A stretch of 36,771 nucleotides of DNA from assembly GCA_031256905.1 (NCBI GenBank), contig JAIRPY010000111.1, forward strand, positions 1 to 36,771, written 5' to 3'. Position numbers and translations under genes: made by a program. Below the pieces are notes generated by a model. That model did not search any database and had not been told where the DNA came from. It was given only the letters and a program-made list of their open reading frames with translations. Source of the DNA: Spirochaetaceae bacterium (lineage in GTDB: Bacteria; Spirochaetota; Spirochaetia; Treponematales; Breznakiellaceae). Positions 23,688 to 30,770 of the stretch are shown here, one piece after another; position 1 is the stretch's first letter, and each line of letters starts with the position of its first letter.

Positions 23688-26057
23688 TCAGGCGTTGCCC
23701 TTAGATTTTAGGAAATCCCCGAGGGTATATTTCGAACCGTCGGATTCTTCGGCCGCCATGTATCGGGACATTTCTTCCCTCTGCATTTTTTTCTGGTAAT
23801 CCCGGATGGAAAACGCGACTTTTTGCTTATCCGGCTGAATTTCGAGGACTACCGCCTTAATTTTGTTCCCGACCTGATATTTTTTGATGGCTTCGTCGGG
23901 ATTTTCGTCCCGATTTTCCGGGAGATTGCTCTTGTGGATGAGTCCTTCGATGCCCCCGGGGACCCGCACGAAAATGCCGAAGTCAGTAATGGAAGAAACT
24001 TCCCCTTCAACCAGCGCGCCGGGCCGATAAGCCGCCGCGAAACTCTGCCACGGGTCCTCGGTAAGCTGTTTGATGCCCACCTGAATGTTCCGCTTCTCCG
24101 GGTCCACCGCGAGAACGATAATCTCGATTTCCCTGCCGACTTGTAATTCGCTTCCGGGATGCTTGACTTTTTTGGTCCAGGAAATATCGTCTCCGTGGAG
24201 GAATGCGTCGATGCCTTCTTCCATTTCGATAAAGGCCCCGACGTTGGTGATTTTCACGACCTTCCGGGTCAGCCTTGTGCCGATGGGATATTTTTCATCG
24301 ACCCGGTCCCAGGGATTTGCAGTCACCTGCTTCAGCCCGAGAGAAACCCGCCCGGCTTGCAGGTCGTACCCGAGAATCATACATTCCACCTGATCCCCGA
24401 TTTTCACGACCTCGTCGGGCCGCTGGATTTTCTTGACCCAAGAAAATTCCGAAATGTGGGCCAGCCCTTCGATGCCTTCTTCCATCTCGATAAAGGCCCC
24501 GAAATCGGTAAGTTTCGTTACTTTGCCGGTAATAATATCATTGACGTGGTACTTATCTTCAAAGTGAACCCAGGGATCATCGGTGAAATGCTTGAGGGAA
24601 AGGTTGATGCGCTTCTCTTCCGGGTCGATCCGGATGACCTTGAGGGTGATTTCCTGCCCTTTTTTGACGAAATCCTTCGGCCGGGTGACGTGCCCCCAGC
24701 TCATATCGTTTATGTGCAGAAGTCCGTCGAAGCCCCCGAGGTCAATAAAGGCCCCGAAGGAGGTGAAACTTTTCACGACTCCGGTAATGTCCGCGCCGAT
24801 AGGGGTGTTTTCGAAAAAGTCCAGCCGTTTTTGTTCGACCGCTTCTTCAAGCCATTTCCTGCGGTTTACAACGATGTTGACTTTACCGTCCGAGTAGAGC
24901 CGTTCGACGTAGACCGGGGTTTTAAGCCCCAAGAGGCGTTCCGGTTTATCGACTTTTTGGGAGTCGGACTGGCTTATGGGAAGAAACGCGTTGACTCCCT
25001 CCCCGAGGCTGAAGCTGTAGCCCCCTTTGACGAGGCTTTCAACGGTCCCCTCGATGAGGGTGTGGTCCTGAAAGGCTTGCCGGAGATTTTTCCAAAGCAG
25101 TTTGATGTCCGCTTTTTGCTTGGAAACGATTACTTCGCCGTTTTTATTCTCTTTGGTGATGAGAATGACCGCGACTTTATCCCCCACTTGCGGGGGTTCC
25201 GGGAACTCTGTAAGGAGAATCTTACCTTCCGATTTGTAGCCTACATCGATGAACACCTGATCCGCGGTTACCGCGACCACCGAGCCTTCGACGATCTGTC
25301 CCTCTTCGAGGGATTCAAGGGATTTAAGATACTCTTCCATCTGTAATTGTGTCTGGATGTTATCCGCAGAGTTTTTCGATTCATCCATTGCCACTTCCTG
25401 AGTCATGCTTGATCCTTCCGTTATCTTCGGTTTTATCGTATCTACCAATATGGCATAAACTTCTTCGATGGTCAAGAGGGAAGTATCGAAAACCCGGACG
25501 CCCGGCGCGATTTTTAGGCTTCCTTCGCCTTTATTTTTATCAATTTTGTCCCGTTCCTCGATAGCCCACTGGATTTCCTCAAGCCCAAGATGAGACACCC
25601 CCTGATCAAACCGCCGTTTCGCCCGAGCTTCCGGACTGGCGTCCAAATAAAACCGGTATTCCGCCTTCGGAAAAACGACGGTCGTCATATCCCGCCCTTC
25701 GGCTACCGCGTCGAAGTTCCGGGCAATCTTCCGAATCAACGCGTTGACCACCTCTCGAACCCGGGGAATCCCGGACAACGGCGGCGTATACCGGTCGATC
25801 TCATCGGTATGCAAAAGGGCCTCCACATTTTCGCCCTCCAGATGGACCGCGCCATTCCGGTACGTAATATCCGCCTGTTCCGCATAAGCCTGCGCGCCGG
25901 TTTCATCGCCCCCCGCAATGCCCCGCCGAACGCACCCCAAAGCAATCGCCCGGTAGATATTGCCGGAATTGATGTACGTATAACCCAACCGTTCCGCCAA
26001 AAGCCGGGCTATCGTGCTTTTCCCGGACCCGGCAGGTCCGTCTATCGCAATTACCAT
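23688..26057 (-). CDS. Cytidylate kinase / ribosomal protein S1 fusion
   Basis: 789 aa. Residues 1-215 are a complete CMP/dCMP kinase: GPAGSGKSTIARLLAERLG (P-loop), YINSGNIYRAIA, VAEGRDMTTVVFP and EARAKRRFDQ. Residues about 255-750 contain six S1 RNA-binding domains; the best repeats are GVVKSFTSFGAFIDLGG, GKVTKLTDFGAFIEMEEG and GEVSSITDFGIFVRVPGG. This fusion is known in treponemes. ATG 26057 has GGGGGAAG upstream. The kinase acts in pyrimidine nucleotide recycling, S1 in mRNA loading on the 30S subunit. A Shine-Dalgarno and in-frame ATG between the two halves (25404-25419) may yield free S1. Confidence 0.93.
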   Translation of the reverse strand: MVIAIDGPAGSGKSTIARLLAERLGYTYINSGNIYRAIALGCVRRGIAGGDETGAQAYAEQADITYRNGAVHLEGENVEALLHTDEIDRYTPPLSGIPRVREVVNALIRKIARNFDAVAEGRDMTTVVFPKAEYRFYLDASPEARAKRRFDQGVSHLGLEEIQWAIEERDKIDKNKGEGSLKIAPGVRVFDTSLLTIEEVYAILVDTIKPKITEGSSMTQEVAMDESKNSADNIQTQLQMEEYLKSLESLEEGQIVEGSVVAVTADQVFIDVGYKSEGKILLTEFPEPPQVGDKVAVILITKENKNGEVIVSKQKADIKLLWKNLRQAFQDHTLIEGTVESLVKGGYSFSLGEGVNAFLPISQSDSQKVDKPERLLGLKTPVYVERLYSDGKVNIVVNRRKWLEEAVEQKRLDFFENTPIGADITGVVKSFTSFGAFIDLGGFDGLLHINDMSWGHVTRPKDFVKKGQEITLKVIRIDPEEKRINLSLKHFTDDPWVHFEDKYHVNDIITGKVTKLTDFGAFIEMEEGIEGLAHISEFSWVKKIQRPDEVVKIGDQVECMILGYDLQAGRVSLGLKQVTANPWDRVDEKYPIGTRLTRKVVKITNVGAFIEMEEGIDAFLHGDDISWTKKVKHPGSELQVGREIEIIVLAVDPEKRNIQVGIKQLTEDPWQSFAAAYRPGALVEGEVSSITDFGIFVRVPGGIEGLIHKSNLPENRDENPDEAIKKYQVGNKIKAVVLEIQPDKQKVAFSIRDYQKKMQREEMSRYMAAEESDGSKYTLGDFLKSKGNA
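25404..25419 (-). promoter_or_regulatory. Internal ribosome-binding site and start codon for free S1
   Basis: Minus strand GGAAGG (25419-25414) lies 7 nt upstream of an in-frame ATG (25406-25404, codon 218; MTQEVAMDESKN), exactly at the linker between kinase and S1 repeats. Spacing and position suit independent translation of a 572-aa S1 protein. Confidence 0.45.
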
Positions 26058-26095: not shown

Positions 26096-26205
26096 CTGTC
26101 GCTGTATGTTCTGCGGAAATCCAGTCTCCTTACCTACTAGCCTAGCGTTTCTAGGGGATATATCTCAATATCCTTTTTAAGGGAGAAGTGTCAAGTATGT
26201 TAAAA

Positions 26206-26246
26206 TGTCTGGCACTTTCTTTAGTCTTTGTCTTTAGTGCCAGACA
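26206..26246. repeat. REP-like inverted repeat beside the RAYT gene
   Basis: TGTCTGGCACT (26206-26216) and AGTGCCAGACA (26236-26246) are perfect 11-bp inverted arms with a 19-nt loop. It sits about 50 nt upstream of the RAYT start, where such transposases usually keep their cognate repeats. Confidence 0.75.
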
Positions 26247-26295
26247 CTAAAAGAAAAAGTGAAGCAGATTGCGTATTGATGCCTTATAGGGATTT

Positions 26296-26805
26296 ATGAG
26301 ACCCTTACGCATACTTATAGACGGGGCGACGTATCATGTCACCTCCGAGATCAACCGAGGCAACTATGATTTGCAGGAGCCTCGGTTCAAGCAAGCCTTT
26401 CTGGACTTCGTAAAAAAGACAAAAAAGAAGTTCAGCTTCGAGTTGTGGAACTTTTGCGTCCTAGACAACCACATCCATTTTCTCATGAAACCCGGACCCG
26501 GGGAGTCTTTATCTAAAATAATGCAGTATTTGAAGAGCCGGTTTGCGAGATGGTGGAACAAGATGCATAATATCACCGGCAGTTTGTGGGGCCGGCGGTT
26601 TTTTTCCCGGATAATCAAGGATGAGGCGGACTTTGCGAGGGTGTCAGAGTACATTGATGAGAATCCGGTGAAGGCTGGTTTGGCACAGAAGCCTGAGCAA
26701 TGGCGTTTCGGCGGGCTGTTCCACCGGCTGATGCGCATCCTCGGCCTAATCGACCCCATCCCAGACCCATCAACGCTCTTTACCAAAAGCCCATCGCCGA
26801 TATAA
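26296..26805 (+). CDS. REP-associated tyrosine transposase (RAYT, Y1_Tnp family)
   Basis: 169 aa, typical length. The HUH metal motif is in LDNHIHFLMKPG, and the catalytic tyrosine is in VSEYIDENPVKAGL. Other family segments are HVTSEINRGN near the start, ARWWNKMHNITGSLWGRRFFSR in the middle (split: ARWWNKM, then GSLWGRRFFSR), and EQWRFGG near the end. RAYTs are single-copy domesticated relatives of IS200/IS605 transposases that nick REP palindromes. AGGGA precedes the ATG at 26296. REP-like arms lie on both sides (26206-26246 and 26808-26817), with further motif copies in the next gene. Confidence 0.9.
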   Translation: MRPLRILIDGATYHVTSEINRGNYDLQEPRFKQAFLDFVKKTKKKFSFELWNFCVLDNHIHFLMKPGPGESLSKIMQYLKSRFARWWNKMHNITGSLWGRRFFSRIIKDEADFARVSEYIDENPVKAGLAQKPEQWRFGGLFHRLMRILGLIDPIPDPSTLFTKSPSPI

Positions 26806-26807
26806 CG

Positions 26808-26817
26808 GTGTCAGACA
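26808..26817. repeat. REP-like half site downstream of the RAYT gene
   Basis: GTGTCAGACA, matching GTCTGACAC in inverse at 28489. It lies 2 nt after the RAYT stop codon. Confidence 0.5.
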
Positions 26818-26861
26818 TTAGGACTCTTGTCACTTCAGGAGTTCATGGGTATGCTTGAAGG

Positions 26862-29800
26862 ATGGAACATCCGCGGCAGTCTAGCGCATCTGCTTTGATC
26901 CTTCGGTCTGGGGCTTTGGCGTTGATTTTCTATCAGCTCAGGCTTTTGGCTCAGGATATGGCGGATACTCCGGTTTTTGCCGCGGCTTTGTTTCTTGGTT
27001 TTGGCGGAGCGTGGGGGCTTTTCCGCAAAAGCGTCCGGCCTGTGCAGGCGGCGGCGTTTATTGCCGCGGCGCCGTGGGTTATTCGGGGGATCCTGGCTTT
27101 TCCTCGGCTATTTTTCGGGGATGCCGAGGTAGGCCTTGACGCTTTACTCCTTAATTTTGATCGCAATACATTTATTGTTCTGATTCCCTTTTATTGGACC
27201 GGCCTGTCCACGTATTTTTGCGCCCGGTCCCGGAGTTTTCTGCAAGCGGATATTATCATCGCTGATACTTTGCTTGTGACTCTGTTCAGCATCGCGCCGA
27301 CTGGGGACATTGATCTGTATCGTTTGCCGATTTTGCTTATTCTCATGTTTACTCTGATACTTTTTCTTCAGATTCTCGCGCTGATTCTTTCTATACCGCC
27401 GGAATGCAAGGTGCGCCGGGGAGAACGATTGGGAAGCGCGATTGCGCTGTTCATACCGGTACTGATCGGAGGCTTGCTTTTCCTTGGGCCCTTTCAGGCG
27501 AAAGCCGCGGATCGAGGGGGCGGGCTATTATCTCCCAATCTTTTCAGTTTTGATTTTTCCCAATTTCTCCATCTGGAAAGTGAAATCAGCATGAATGAAG
27601 ATTTAGTGTTTATTCTGCGAAAAGCCCCGGACAACCCGCAAGTTCTTTTGCGGCGGTATGTGCTTTCGGGTTACTCTCGCAGGGAGGGATTTTTCCGGTA
27701 TGAACCTTTGGATGAGCCGACTCATCCGAAAAAGCTTCCGGTAACGAAAGCGGCTCAGAGATATGAAAAAAAAACTTTGAGCGGACAAGAGTATTACCTT
27801 GTGAATTTTGAGGCTTCTGCGTTCGTGGCGATGAATGAACCTGTTGAAGTTACGCCCTTTGAGACCTGGGATGCCGGGTCCTTTACGTCGGTGTACGCGG
27901 TCCAGAGCCGAATCAACGAAGCCCTGCCCTATGAACTTTTCGATGCGGTTCCGGGCGAACCAAGTCCGGAAGCCCTCGAACTAAGTCCGGAAGAATACGC
28001 CGTGTATACTAATTACGGCCGAGACGAGCGAATCGCGGCTCTTGCCCGGGGGATAACCGCAGGTTGCGATAGGTATCAAGATAAAATTGATCTCATCTGC
28101 CAATTCCTAAAAGAAGGCGAATATCGGTACAGTTTCAGGCCCGGCATCGCTCCGGACGGGGATCAGTTGAGCCGTTTTTTGTTTCAGTCGAAAAAGGGCT
28201 ATTGTTCATATTACGCGTTTTCCATGACTCTGCTCCTTCGTTCTCTGGGGATTCCTGCTAGAGTCGCGGCCGGATTCAGCATTGAAAACGCTCCGCATGC
28301 GCTGAACTATTATCCGGTCCGGTCTAACATGGCCCACGCCTGGGTGGAGGTGAAGTATCCCGGGTACGGCTGGATCGAGTACGATCCCACAACTAAACAG
28401 CTCGCGGAAGGAGAGGCCTTCGAATTTTCTTCGGGAATGCCGGACGGATTCGAATCTTTGCTCAAAGAAATTTTAGATAAACACGCTAGTCTGACACCAA
28501 AAGAAGTGTCTGGCCCTAGAAAAAATACAGCCCGCGCCGAGGAGCTTCGGATTAGGGATTGGAGCGGTATACTTTTCGGAGTTGTGTTTGGCGGAATGGG
28601 TATTCTGATTCGGGTTCAATACCTGCTGGGAATGAGGTTTGCGAGGCCTCCCCGGAGAAAAGCGAATCTCCTCTGGAATCATGCGAAGCGCCGACTTGAC
28701 TTGGGGGGCTATGCTCGGAATTCTCAGGAAGCCGAGTCCGAATGGGCGCATCGCTTGGAAAGCCGATTTTCGGGGTTGTACCCTTTATATCAAGCGGTAT
28801 CCGCGGCCCGGTACGGACCGGAGTACTCCGCCGAAGCTTTTGGGGATATGCATCAGCGGTATCGCGTTTTTTCCGGGTCCTACGCCCGAATCGTCCGGCC
28901 GGGGCGGCGCGCGCTGGCCTGGGGGATGCCGCTCCTCGCTTTGGTCCTGCCTCCGGGAAAACTTTATTCGTCCTGGAAAATACTGGGAATTCTTATTATC
29001 CTTTTTTGGGGCTTTTCGTCGGCCCAAGCTCAGTATATTGAGGGGTCAGACACTCAAAACGACGCGCAGATGATTTACGCTCAAGCTCTGGAATCTCAGC
29101 TTGCGGAGCATTGGGAGCGGGCGGTGGAGCTGTATAACGATGGCTTGACTCGGTATCCGGAGGATCCGCGGTTTTCGTGGGCCCTGGGAGAGCTGTATTA
29201 CAAACGTAATTTTTATAGTTTGGCTTGGGATTACTACCGCAAAACCGAGCGGATTCTGCCGGAGGACCCGGATGTGCTGTATCAGCTTTCCCGAACCGCG
29301 GCGTACCTTAATCGGGATGCCGCGTCCGCGGCGTACCTTGAGCGGCTGTTGCTTTTTGAGCCGGATAACCAGAAAGCTATTGGTAATTTGGGGTGGATGT
29401 ATTTCAAACTGCATCGTCTGGGAGAGGGCAAGGCTCTGTTGCTGTCGGCCCTGGAGCGGTTTGGTCCCAATCCTGATTTTTCCATGACCTTGGGAACAAT
29501 TTTTGCGGACCTTTTTCAGTACGAGGAAGCCAAAAAACGATACTTGGAAGCCATCGCTTTGGGTGAAGAAATCGGAGACCGCCGATTCACCGCGGTAAGC
29601 CACTATAACCTGTCCCTTTTGGAAGCTCGGTTTTATCAGTATGATCGCGCTTTTGAGCGGACCAATATTTCGCTCCGTTCTCTGGATCGGGCTACGGGGC
29701 GGCTGGCCCGAGGAGAGTTGTTTCTCAAACAGCTTGAATTTAAACAAGCCTTTATGGATTATCAAGCCGCATACGAGATGGAACGCAATTCGGTCCCCCT

Positions 29801-30770
29801 TTCTAAGGTCCATCTCGCCCAGTCGTACCAGCAGGCGGGACGGCTGGAAGAAGCCCGAGTCTACGCCGAAGATTGTCTGCGCGGCCCGGACCTTTCCTGG
29901 ATGCTCAATTACGGCATCGATCCGGTGCGGTATAAGCAGGACCTTCATGAGATTCTCTATCGGGTGTATGCAGGCCTTGAGCGGACCGAATATACCGGAA
30001 CCCCCAAGACTTGGCGGGAAATGGCGGGAAGCGCGTTTCGGAAGGCGTCGTATTGGTTTAAACGAGAGACCCATCGGCATTTGTTTCGGAAATACAGCCT
30101 CCTGGCGGCGGATATGTATACTTCAGATGGCGAATCAAATCTGGAATCTCTTTTGCAATATTACCATGCCTTTGAAGACTATCCTCGACGGGCTTTAGTA
30201 TATCTTCGCAAAGCCGGGTCCTTCGAGAGGCCCCTCATTCCGGAGTCGGCCAGCACGTATCTGTTTGAAGAAGGACGTCTGCTGAAAAATTACGCCTTAC
30301 TGTATGAAGGCATGGGCCGGTTTAATCCGGTGTGGCAACGGGATATGCTCGTAAAGGGTTTTACGGAACTCGCGAAACCCACCTGGAGGGCAAAACCCGA
30401 GACCCGAGGAGAAGCGGCAGAATCGCTCTACGCCCTGAACCGCGGAGCTTTGCGGCAGAACGGCATCCGCCTGCCGGTGGAGCTTGCAGTGTCTGGCACT
30501 GCGCCGGGAAGCAAATTCACTGAAACCTTGGTCCGGCGCCTTAAAGCCGGGGGGATTGACGTTCGGCCTGGTCCAAGCCGTTTCCGGCTGGAGATCCGTA
30601 TTCAGGGAGATCAGGAAAAGGGCTGGCTGGGAGGGTGCGAAATTTATGACACCCTTCGGGGGAACGGGCTTCTGCTCAAGCGGAGCATTCCTCTGCATTC
30701 GCTTTCCGATAAGGCGCAGATAAGCGAGTTTGTTCGGGATTTGAGCAATAGTATGTTTACTTACGAGTAA
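26862..30770 (+). CDS. Transglutaminase-like membrane protein fused to a TPR domain
   Basis: 1302 aa. Residues 1-210 hold several membrane helices (DUF3488/TgpA-like). The transglutaminase core has its triad at Cys448 (KKGYCSYYAFSM), His492 (NMAHAWVEV) and Asp508 (WIEYDPT). Another helix lies at about 565-585. At about 700-720 SWKILGILIILFWGFSSAQA reads like a signal peptide and is followed from 735 by TPR repeats (AVELYNDGLTRYPEDPRFSW, NLGWMYFKLHRLGEGKALL). The last ~100 residues are a separate unknown domain. The fusion may join two formerly separate genes. ATG 26862 is the first possible start after an in-frame stop at 26856, but the Shine-Dalgarno CAGGAG lies 20 nt upstream, better placed for ATG 26844 of a 17-codon overlapping ORF. 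Three REP-like motif sites lie inside the coding sequence. Confidence 0.85.
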   Translation: MEHPRQSSASALILRSGALALIFYQLRLLAQDMADTPVFAAALFLGFGGAWGLFRKSVRPVQAAAFIAAAPWVIRGILAFPRLFFGDAEVGLDALLLNFDRNTFIVLIPFYWTGLSTYFCARSRSFLQADIIIADTLLVTLFSIAPTGDIDLYRLPILLILMFTLILFLQILALILSIPPECKVRRGERLGSAIALFIPVLIGGLLFLGPFQAKAADRGGGLLSPNLFSFDFSQFLHLESEISMNEDLVFILRKAPDNPQVLLRRYVLSGYSRREGFFRYEPLDEPTHPKKLPVTKAAQRYEKKTLSGQEYYLVNFEASAFVAMNEPVEVTPFETWDAGSFTSVYAVQSRINEALPYELFDAVPGEPSPEALELSPEEYAVYTNYGRDERIAALARGITAGCDRYQDKIDLICQFLKEGEYRYSFRPGIAPDGDQLSRFLFQSKKGYCSYYAFSMTLLLRSLGIPARVAAGFSIENAPHALNYYPVRSNMAHAWVEVKYPGYGWIEYDPTTKQLAEGEAFEFSSGMPDGFESLLKEILDKHASLTPKEVSGPRKNTARAEELRIRDWSGILFGVVFGGMGILIRVQYLLGMRFARPPRRKANLLWNHAKRRLDLGGYARNSQEAESEWAHRLESRFSGLYPLYQAVSAARYGPEYSAEAFGDMHQRYRVFSGSYARIVRPGRRALAWGMPLLALVLPPGKLYSSWKILGILIILFWGFSSAQAQYIEGSDTQNDAQMIYAQALESQLAEHWERAVELYNDGLTRYPEDPRFSWALGELYYKRNFYSLAWDYYRKTERILPEDPDVLYQLSRTAAYLNRDAASAAYLERLLLFEPDNQKAIGNLGWMYFKLHRLGEGKALLLSALERFGPNPDFSMTLGTIFADLFQYEEAKKRYLEAIALGEEIGDRRFTAVSHYNLSLLEARFYQYDRAFERTNISLRSLDRATGRLARGELFLKQLEFKQAFMDYQAAYEMERNSVPLSKVHLAQSYQQAGRLEEARVYAEDCLRGPDLSWMLNYGIDPVRYKQDLHEILYRVYAGLERTEYTGTPKTWREMAGSAFRKASYWFKRETHRHLFRKYSLLAADMYTSDGESNLESLLQYYHAFEDYPRRALVYLRKAGSFERPLIPESASTYLFEEGRLLKNYALLYEGMGRFNPVWQRDMLVKGFTELAKPTWRAKPETRGEAAESLYALNRGALRQNGIRLPVELAVSGTAPGSKFTETLVRRLKAGGIDVRPGPSRFRLEIRIQGDQEKGWLGGCEIYDTLRGNGLLLKRSIPLHSLSDKAQISEFVRDLSNSMFTYE
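28486..28518. repeat. REP-like motif pair inside the transglutaminase/TPR gene, linker region
   Basis: GTCTGACAC (28489-28497) and GTGTCTGGC (28506-28514) around an A-rich centre; GACAC and GTGTC can pair. It encodes residues about 543-551 (SLTPKEVSG) in the linker after the transglutaminase core. Confidence 0.55.
29045..29054. repeat. REP-like motif inside the transglutaminase/TPR gene, at the domain junction
   Basis: GTCAGACACT, inverse of AGTGTCTGAC. It encodes part of EGSDTQND (about residue 728), directly after the internal signal-peptide-like helix. Confidence 0.45.
30486..30502. repeat. REP-like hairpin inside the transglutaminase/TPR gene, C-terminal domain
   Basis: GCAGTG-tctgg-CACTGC, a 6-bp stem containing GTGTCTGGCACT, 10 of whose 11 last bases match the arm at 26206. 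It encodes AVSGTA near residue 1209. Confidence 0.55.

Follow-up and report, generated by a model that had tools for sequence, protein, structure and literature searches.

How did the terminal repeat of a mobile element come to lie within the coding sequence of the gene next to it? The window considered here (i.e., the whole stretch of DNA that was analysed, 36,771 nucleotides from a Spirochaetaceae bacterium) contains a gene for a REP-associated tyrosine transposase (RAYT) and, immediately downstream, a gene for a membrane protein of 1302 residues. From the sequence of the window alone, an initial annotation described a short motif shared by the surroundings of the RAYT gene and by this large open reading frame, and proposed that linkers of the protein had evolved through in-frame insertion of REP sequences. 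We therefore consider what the motif is, how it is distributed in this genome and its relatives, and whether its copies in genes are additions to the proteins or replacements of what was already there.

Results

Copies of the word in the window

The features of the locus are collected in Table 1; the fused cytidylate kinase/S1 gene listed there is suggestive of a spirochaete. The motif does form a perfect inverted pair just upstream of the RAYT gene, as first described: the two arms (26204-26216, with one mismatch, and 26236-26248, exact on the minus strand) make up an 11-bp perfect inverted pair that lies 47 bp upstream of the start of the gene. It recurs downstream of that gene and at three sites in the 1302-aa open reading frame, and the further statement that the rest of the window holds no comparable copies is borne out, in that all eight matches to the 13-mer AGTGTCTGGCACT (up to three mismatches) fall within 26204-30500, a number of matches equalled in only one of 100 shuffles.

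Table 1. Features of the RAYT locus and of the neighbouring 1302-aa gene (positions in the window).
Feature	Position	Strand	Detail
Fused cytidylate kinase/S1 gene	23688-26057		
Left-end inverted pair of RAYT element	26204-26248		AATGTCTGGCACT, 19-nt spacer, AGTGCCAGACACT
RAYT gene	26296-26805	+	Y1/HUH transposase, 169 aa; HUH motif in DNHIHFLM
Right-end core of RAYT element	26808-26817	-	GTGTCAGACA
1302-aa gene	26862-30770	+	Transglutaminase-core and TPR membrane protein with three motif sites; PF01841 (9e-24), TPR families
Site 1	28489-28516	+	Doublet GTCTGACACC-AAAAGAA-GTGTCTGGCCC; encodes SLTPKEVSGP
Site 2	29043-29053	-	GTGTCTGACCC, read on the minus strand; encodes GSDT
Site 3	30488-30500	+	Exact 13-mer AGTGTCTGGCACT; encodes AVSGT

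The core GTGTCTGRC[A/C]C has four exact copies in the window, one beside the RAYT gene (26237) and three in the 1302-aa gene (28506, 29043 and 30489), where both weaker sites are of the GTGTCTGRCCC variant. For a gene this long, about 0.04 family words would be expected on the basis of the 23 non-array copies genome-wide (tandem arrays set aside). The resulting P of about 1e-5 for at least three is descriptive rather than a clean test, because the initial annotation had pointed to this gene beforehand.

A multi-copy RAYT element

Y1_Tnp (Pfam PF01797, 6e-17) is the only domain found in the RAYT protein, and Pfam detected no C-terminal HTH domain in its 169 residues. The protein scores 102 bits against the NCBIfam model for REP-associated tyrosine transposases (NF047646, cutoff 80) and falls below the cutoff of the IS200 model; its nearest solved structure is TnpArep (PDB 4er8, E 3e-7). 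This genome contains eight matches to it above the Pfam cutoff, or 16 when fragments are included, that are 88-100% identical to the copy in the window. Most of these copies have a common left end, consisting of the core inverted pair with differing spacers, and a common tail. Several end alike at the right (...TATAACGGTGTCAGACA) and diverge beyond it, the right-end core being the point at which their similarity stops, and the same right end is present at RAYT copies or remnants on contigs C80, C128, C1, C39 and C125. The RAYT here is an element present in several copies, bounded by an inverted pair on the left and a single core on the right, and its copy number and common ends do not fit a single-gene RAYT that does not move as a unit. 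At the left ends that we read, no GTAG or GTGG foot directly precedes the core. On C125 (L064, 25-1776), a 3' remnant of the RAYT, right-end word included, continues in frame into a 584-aa open reading frame.

A repeat family paired with one RAYT clade

The motif had been expected to exceed its chance frequency across the genome, and it does: GTGTCTGRCAC has 31 exact matches versus none for the reversed control, GTCTGRCAC has 91 versus 12, and the variant GTGTCTGRCCC has 11 versus 2. GTGTCTGRCAC is thus a genuine repeat family, dispersed and palindromic (the 11-mer GTGTCWGACAC is a palindrome), and the RAYT gene is flanked by members of it. Genes contain the word at a density about 8 to 35 times lower than that of intergenic sequence, and in this genome the clear non-array copies outside genes lie mostly on contigs that carry RAYTs or RAYT remnants. 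A literature search on the word itself gave no relevant paper among the matches listed. The word is also contained in tandem arrays on contigs C63, C39, C58, C20, C128 and C85 (L047, L043, L046, L041, L067 and L053), which have periods that are multiples of 3 (e.g., 63, 42 and 84 bp) and are open in several frames.

In a tree built with one RAYT per genome, those of this genome (G000) and of G003, G008, G014, G027 and G029 form one clade (support 90/77). The core lies within 300 bp of the RAYT at five of the six tree loci of this clade; the sixth, in G027, has no core within that distance, and other RAYT copies of G027 do have it. Five of the six genomes are enriched in GTGTCTGRCAC (31 copies in G000, 50 in G003, 176 in G008, 235 in G027 and 10 in G029), the exception being G014 with 3, and nearly all other relatives, with other RAYTs or none, have 0-2 copies (the exceptions are G046 with 9, G088 with 6 and G062 with 3). 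These counts, together with the cores that flank the RAYT copies, support the link between motif and RAYT that was originally put forward: within the RAYT family, one clade has RGTGTCTGRCACY as its terminal repeat.

A sister RAYT clade pairs with a different word, GGGACAGAGC, and GGGGACAGAGC-like words often precede its RAYTs. GGGACAGAGCW has 39-157 copies in several sister-clade genomes (G026, G021, G063, G067, G068, G071 and G080) and 0-4 across G000, G003, G008 and G027, being absent from G000. Among the remaining genomes, no RAYT of the present clade was detected in G046, which has the nine copies of GTGTCTGRCAC mentioned above, and G031 and G017 each gave about 150 candidate RAYT matches at first look (36 were scored in each), far above the numbers usual for RAYTs.

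The three sites in the 1302-aa protein

Homologues of the 1302-aa protein occur in most relatives of the family, the nearest being only 69% identical, and the motif DNA is absent from the seven closest homologues examined (four variants of the 13-mer, up to two mismatches). An alignment of homologues had been proposed as the way to recognise the motif-encoded residues as insertions; no clean insertion appears in it at any of the three sites, and the linkers are variable in length. The residues encoded at site 1 align without gaps to such residues as SRLTPKEGTD of L075, and their LTPKE part is, judging by this alignment, ancestral. At site 1 the linker falls about six residues short of its counterparts in the two nearest homologues, and in homologues from relatives that lack this RAYT clade it is about as long as here or longer. 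The regions of sites 2 and 3 are about three residues longer than in L071, the nearest homologue, and lie within the spread of the other homologues, which vary by several residues anyway.

The copies had also been assigned to domain linkers, which holds for sites 1 and 2 but not for site 3. The first two are predicted disordered linkers (AlphaFold pLDDT <50), one following the transglutaminase domain and the other preceding the TPR region, whereas site 3 is placed by AlphaFold where a predicted beta strand ends and passes into a loop of the C-terminal domain. All three are in variable regions, and the structural model and the alignment together indicate that the words lie where the protein tolerates change but do not demonstrate insertion. 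That the copies keep the reading frame is weak evidence, given that at least five of the six frames of the word contain no stop, and we rejected frame-keeping as an argument for insertion. A 17-nt stretch of the site 1 doublet recurs beside a RAYT remnant on C125, and therefore supports a RAYT-related origin of this site.

The word in other genes

Elsewhere in this genome, the 11-mer occurs in three other ordinary genes, where it is read as VSDT; homologues of these genes show VTDT, ADT or VSDT, and no residues have been added. In the coding sequence of G008 (463 kb) there are 16 copies of the word versus 1.8 expected from synonymous shuffling, a count that none of 400 permuted control word families attains (the largest reaches 7), and the excess persists when one mismatch is allowed (33 seen, 13 expected). 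Fourteen of these 16 are in frame and read VSDT, VSGT or VPDT; likewise, 14 are followed by C or T, as intergenic copies are, and longer flanks are not common to them. The coding excess in G027 (3 versus 0.2 expected) is not significant, since 15 of 400 controls reach 3.

Homologues were aligned at 13 other single coding copies from G000 and G008. No residues are added at 11 of these; MurD of G008 has a clean four-residue insertion (NVSDT), and the remaining copy falls in a region of variable length. Several coding copies elsewhere occupy positions at which homologues have peptides near VSDT (VTDT, VADT or VPDT). By inspection, the word in the G003 genes for dihydroorotase and seryl-tRNA synthetase, and in the G008 genes for glycerol kinase and an MBOAT protein, seems to encode conserved residues of these families, and these copies were left out of the insertion count.

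Some proteins of G008 contain regions that are built of repeats. A divergent polysaccharide deacetylase (L178, 13711-15588) has a linker of several hundred residues, made of GGVSGT/GGVAGT, that holds 12 exact copies of the RAYT-linked word, and further regions of this sort occur in a protein with VSDTSTVSGTNLTSDTALVSDISAVSDT and in the tails of a Band 7 protein and an RsmB/F-type methyltransferase. Because of the genic excess in G008 and these word-built linkers and tails, the colonisation of coding sequence by the word is real in this lineage, and apparently it has proceeded mostly by replacement.

Discussion

The explanation that we favour, and to which we would assign an even chance, is that RAYT-related processing of single-stranded DNA placed the terminal word near the element, where it replaced or patched similar sequence and was kept at tolerant sites. 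TnpAREP proteins cut single-stranded repeats and join them again (PMC8266576, PMC6006769), and processing of this kind by the RAYT would seed its terminal word in the vicinity, a step that we infer from the clustering of the words and from their link to the RAYT clade. Within genes, the word would mostly be written over similar sequence without net insertion, as suggested by coding copies that add no residues, and the words that survive would be those read as V/G-S-D/G-T/P without a stop, at positions where the protein tolerates change. Replacement is supported in that seven close homologues lack the word yet show no corresponding difference in length; counting against it are the clean insertion in MurD, the repeat-built linkers of G008, and an excess in G027 that is within the range of controls. 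On present alignments, the coding copies in the 1302-aa gene are more likely to have replaced existing sequence than to have been inserted, and insertion followed by trimming may have occurred at these sites, since the nearest homologue is so distant.

In-frame insertion, by which the RAYT, in the manner of Rickettsia palindromic elements, would have put short motif units into the gene that now serve as linker residues, we consider rather unlikely for the 1302-aa gene. The slightly greater lengths at sites 2 and 3 relative to the nearest homologue are in its favour, as are, in G008, the four residues gained by MurD and the repeat-built deacetylase linker and protein tails. However, linker lengths differ among all homologues of the 1302-aa protein, site 1 is shorter than in its two nearest homologues and retains the ancestral LTPKE, and most other single coding copies add nothing. 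The original idea of linker evolution by REP insertion has some support from the repeat-encoded linkers and tails of G008, where most single coding copies nevertheless show no insertion; in the gene for which it was proposed, none of the three sites is a clean insertion.

A bolder proposal, which we regard as distinctly improbable, is that the RAYT-linked palindrome enters coding regions by templated patching (e.g., through single-stranded repeat DNA annealing at replication forks), in which near-matching DNA would be overwritten and similar codons converted into the exact word at unchanged length. If true, patching would amount to a selfish repeat editing ordinary proteins at VSDT-like sites.

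It is highly doubtful that the words arose as chance matches in permissive peptides and were retained by selection on the protein. Such coincidences could account for the coding copies at peptides that already resemble VSDT in homologues, and for the three other ordinary genes with the 11-mer in this genome, a number not much higher than the one or so per genome that makes up the background. But chance would not be expected to produce three exact family words in a single 3.9-kb gene beside a RAYT, a site 1 doublet whose spacer resembles that of RAYT-adjacent DNA, or an excess in G008 that withstands both synonymous shuffling and 400 control word families. Least credible of all is a recognition site selected genome-wide and merely used by the RAYT: although the word is palindromic and its copies in G008 occupy aligned positions without added residues and remain in excess at one mismatch, enrichment is essentially confined to genomes with this RAYT clade, genes are depleted of the word relative to the sequence between them, and the clear intergenic copies of this genome keep mostly to contigs with RAYTs or their remnants.

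Comparison with known systems

HIP1, uptake sequences and Chi are short words that are over-represented in genes without insertion, a property shared by the word described here, which differs from them in its association with a transposase clade, its much lower frequency and its mainly intergenic location. Its counts follow the RAYT clade, whereas a word of that kind would be enriched independently of a mobile element.

The element resembles a REPtron in having an HUH/Y1 transposase that passes the NCBIfam RAYT model and is flanked by an inverted pair of a dispersed repeat. It differs in that its left ends, where read, have no GTAG foot and in that several near-identical RAYT copies occur per genome, whereas REPtrons are described as mostly single and as not moving as a unit (PMC6006769). 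Terminal-inverted-repeat tyrosine transposases (TIRYTs), which are probably subclass 2.1 of Quentin et al., offer a second comparison, as here too a RAYT-like protein is associated with terminal repeats that are not of the GTAG type. The terminal repeats of TIRYTs have the consensus GGGGWSAS (Di Nocera et al., PMC3733652), which the GGGGACAGAGC-like words of the sister clade fit but GTGTCTGRCAC, the word of this clade, does not; and unlike TIRYTs and subclass 2.1, the protein here has no C-terminal HTH extension detectable with Pfam.

That REPs can lie within genes is not new in itself: Di Nocera et al. (PMC3733652) described such cases, and the Rickettsia palindromic elements (RPEs) are in-frame insertions (PMC10969869); like both, our copies are short palindromic repeats in frame within ordinary genes. 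Those known cases, however, are insertions (dimers of 20-30 residues, clusters of 43-82 residues, and RPEs of about 150 bp; PMC3733652, PMC10969869), whereas the coding copies here span 11-13 bp and mostly add no residues. Relative to the literature searched, the new points are the word, the fact that it pairs with one RAYT clade and its replacement-like occurrence in genes. In one relative (G008), this clade-specific word is over-represented in ordinary genes, mostly without added residues. With two RAYT clades paired with two words in related genomes, both the spread of RAYT repeats and their entry into proteins become testable.
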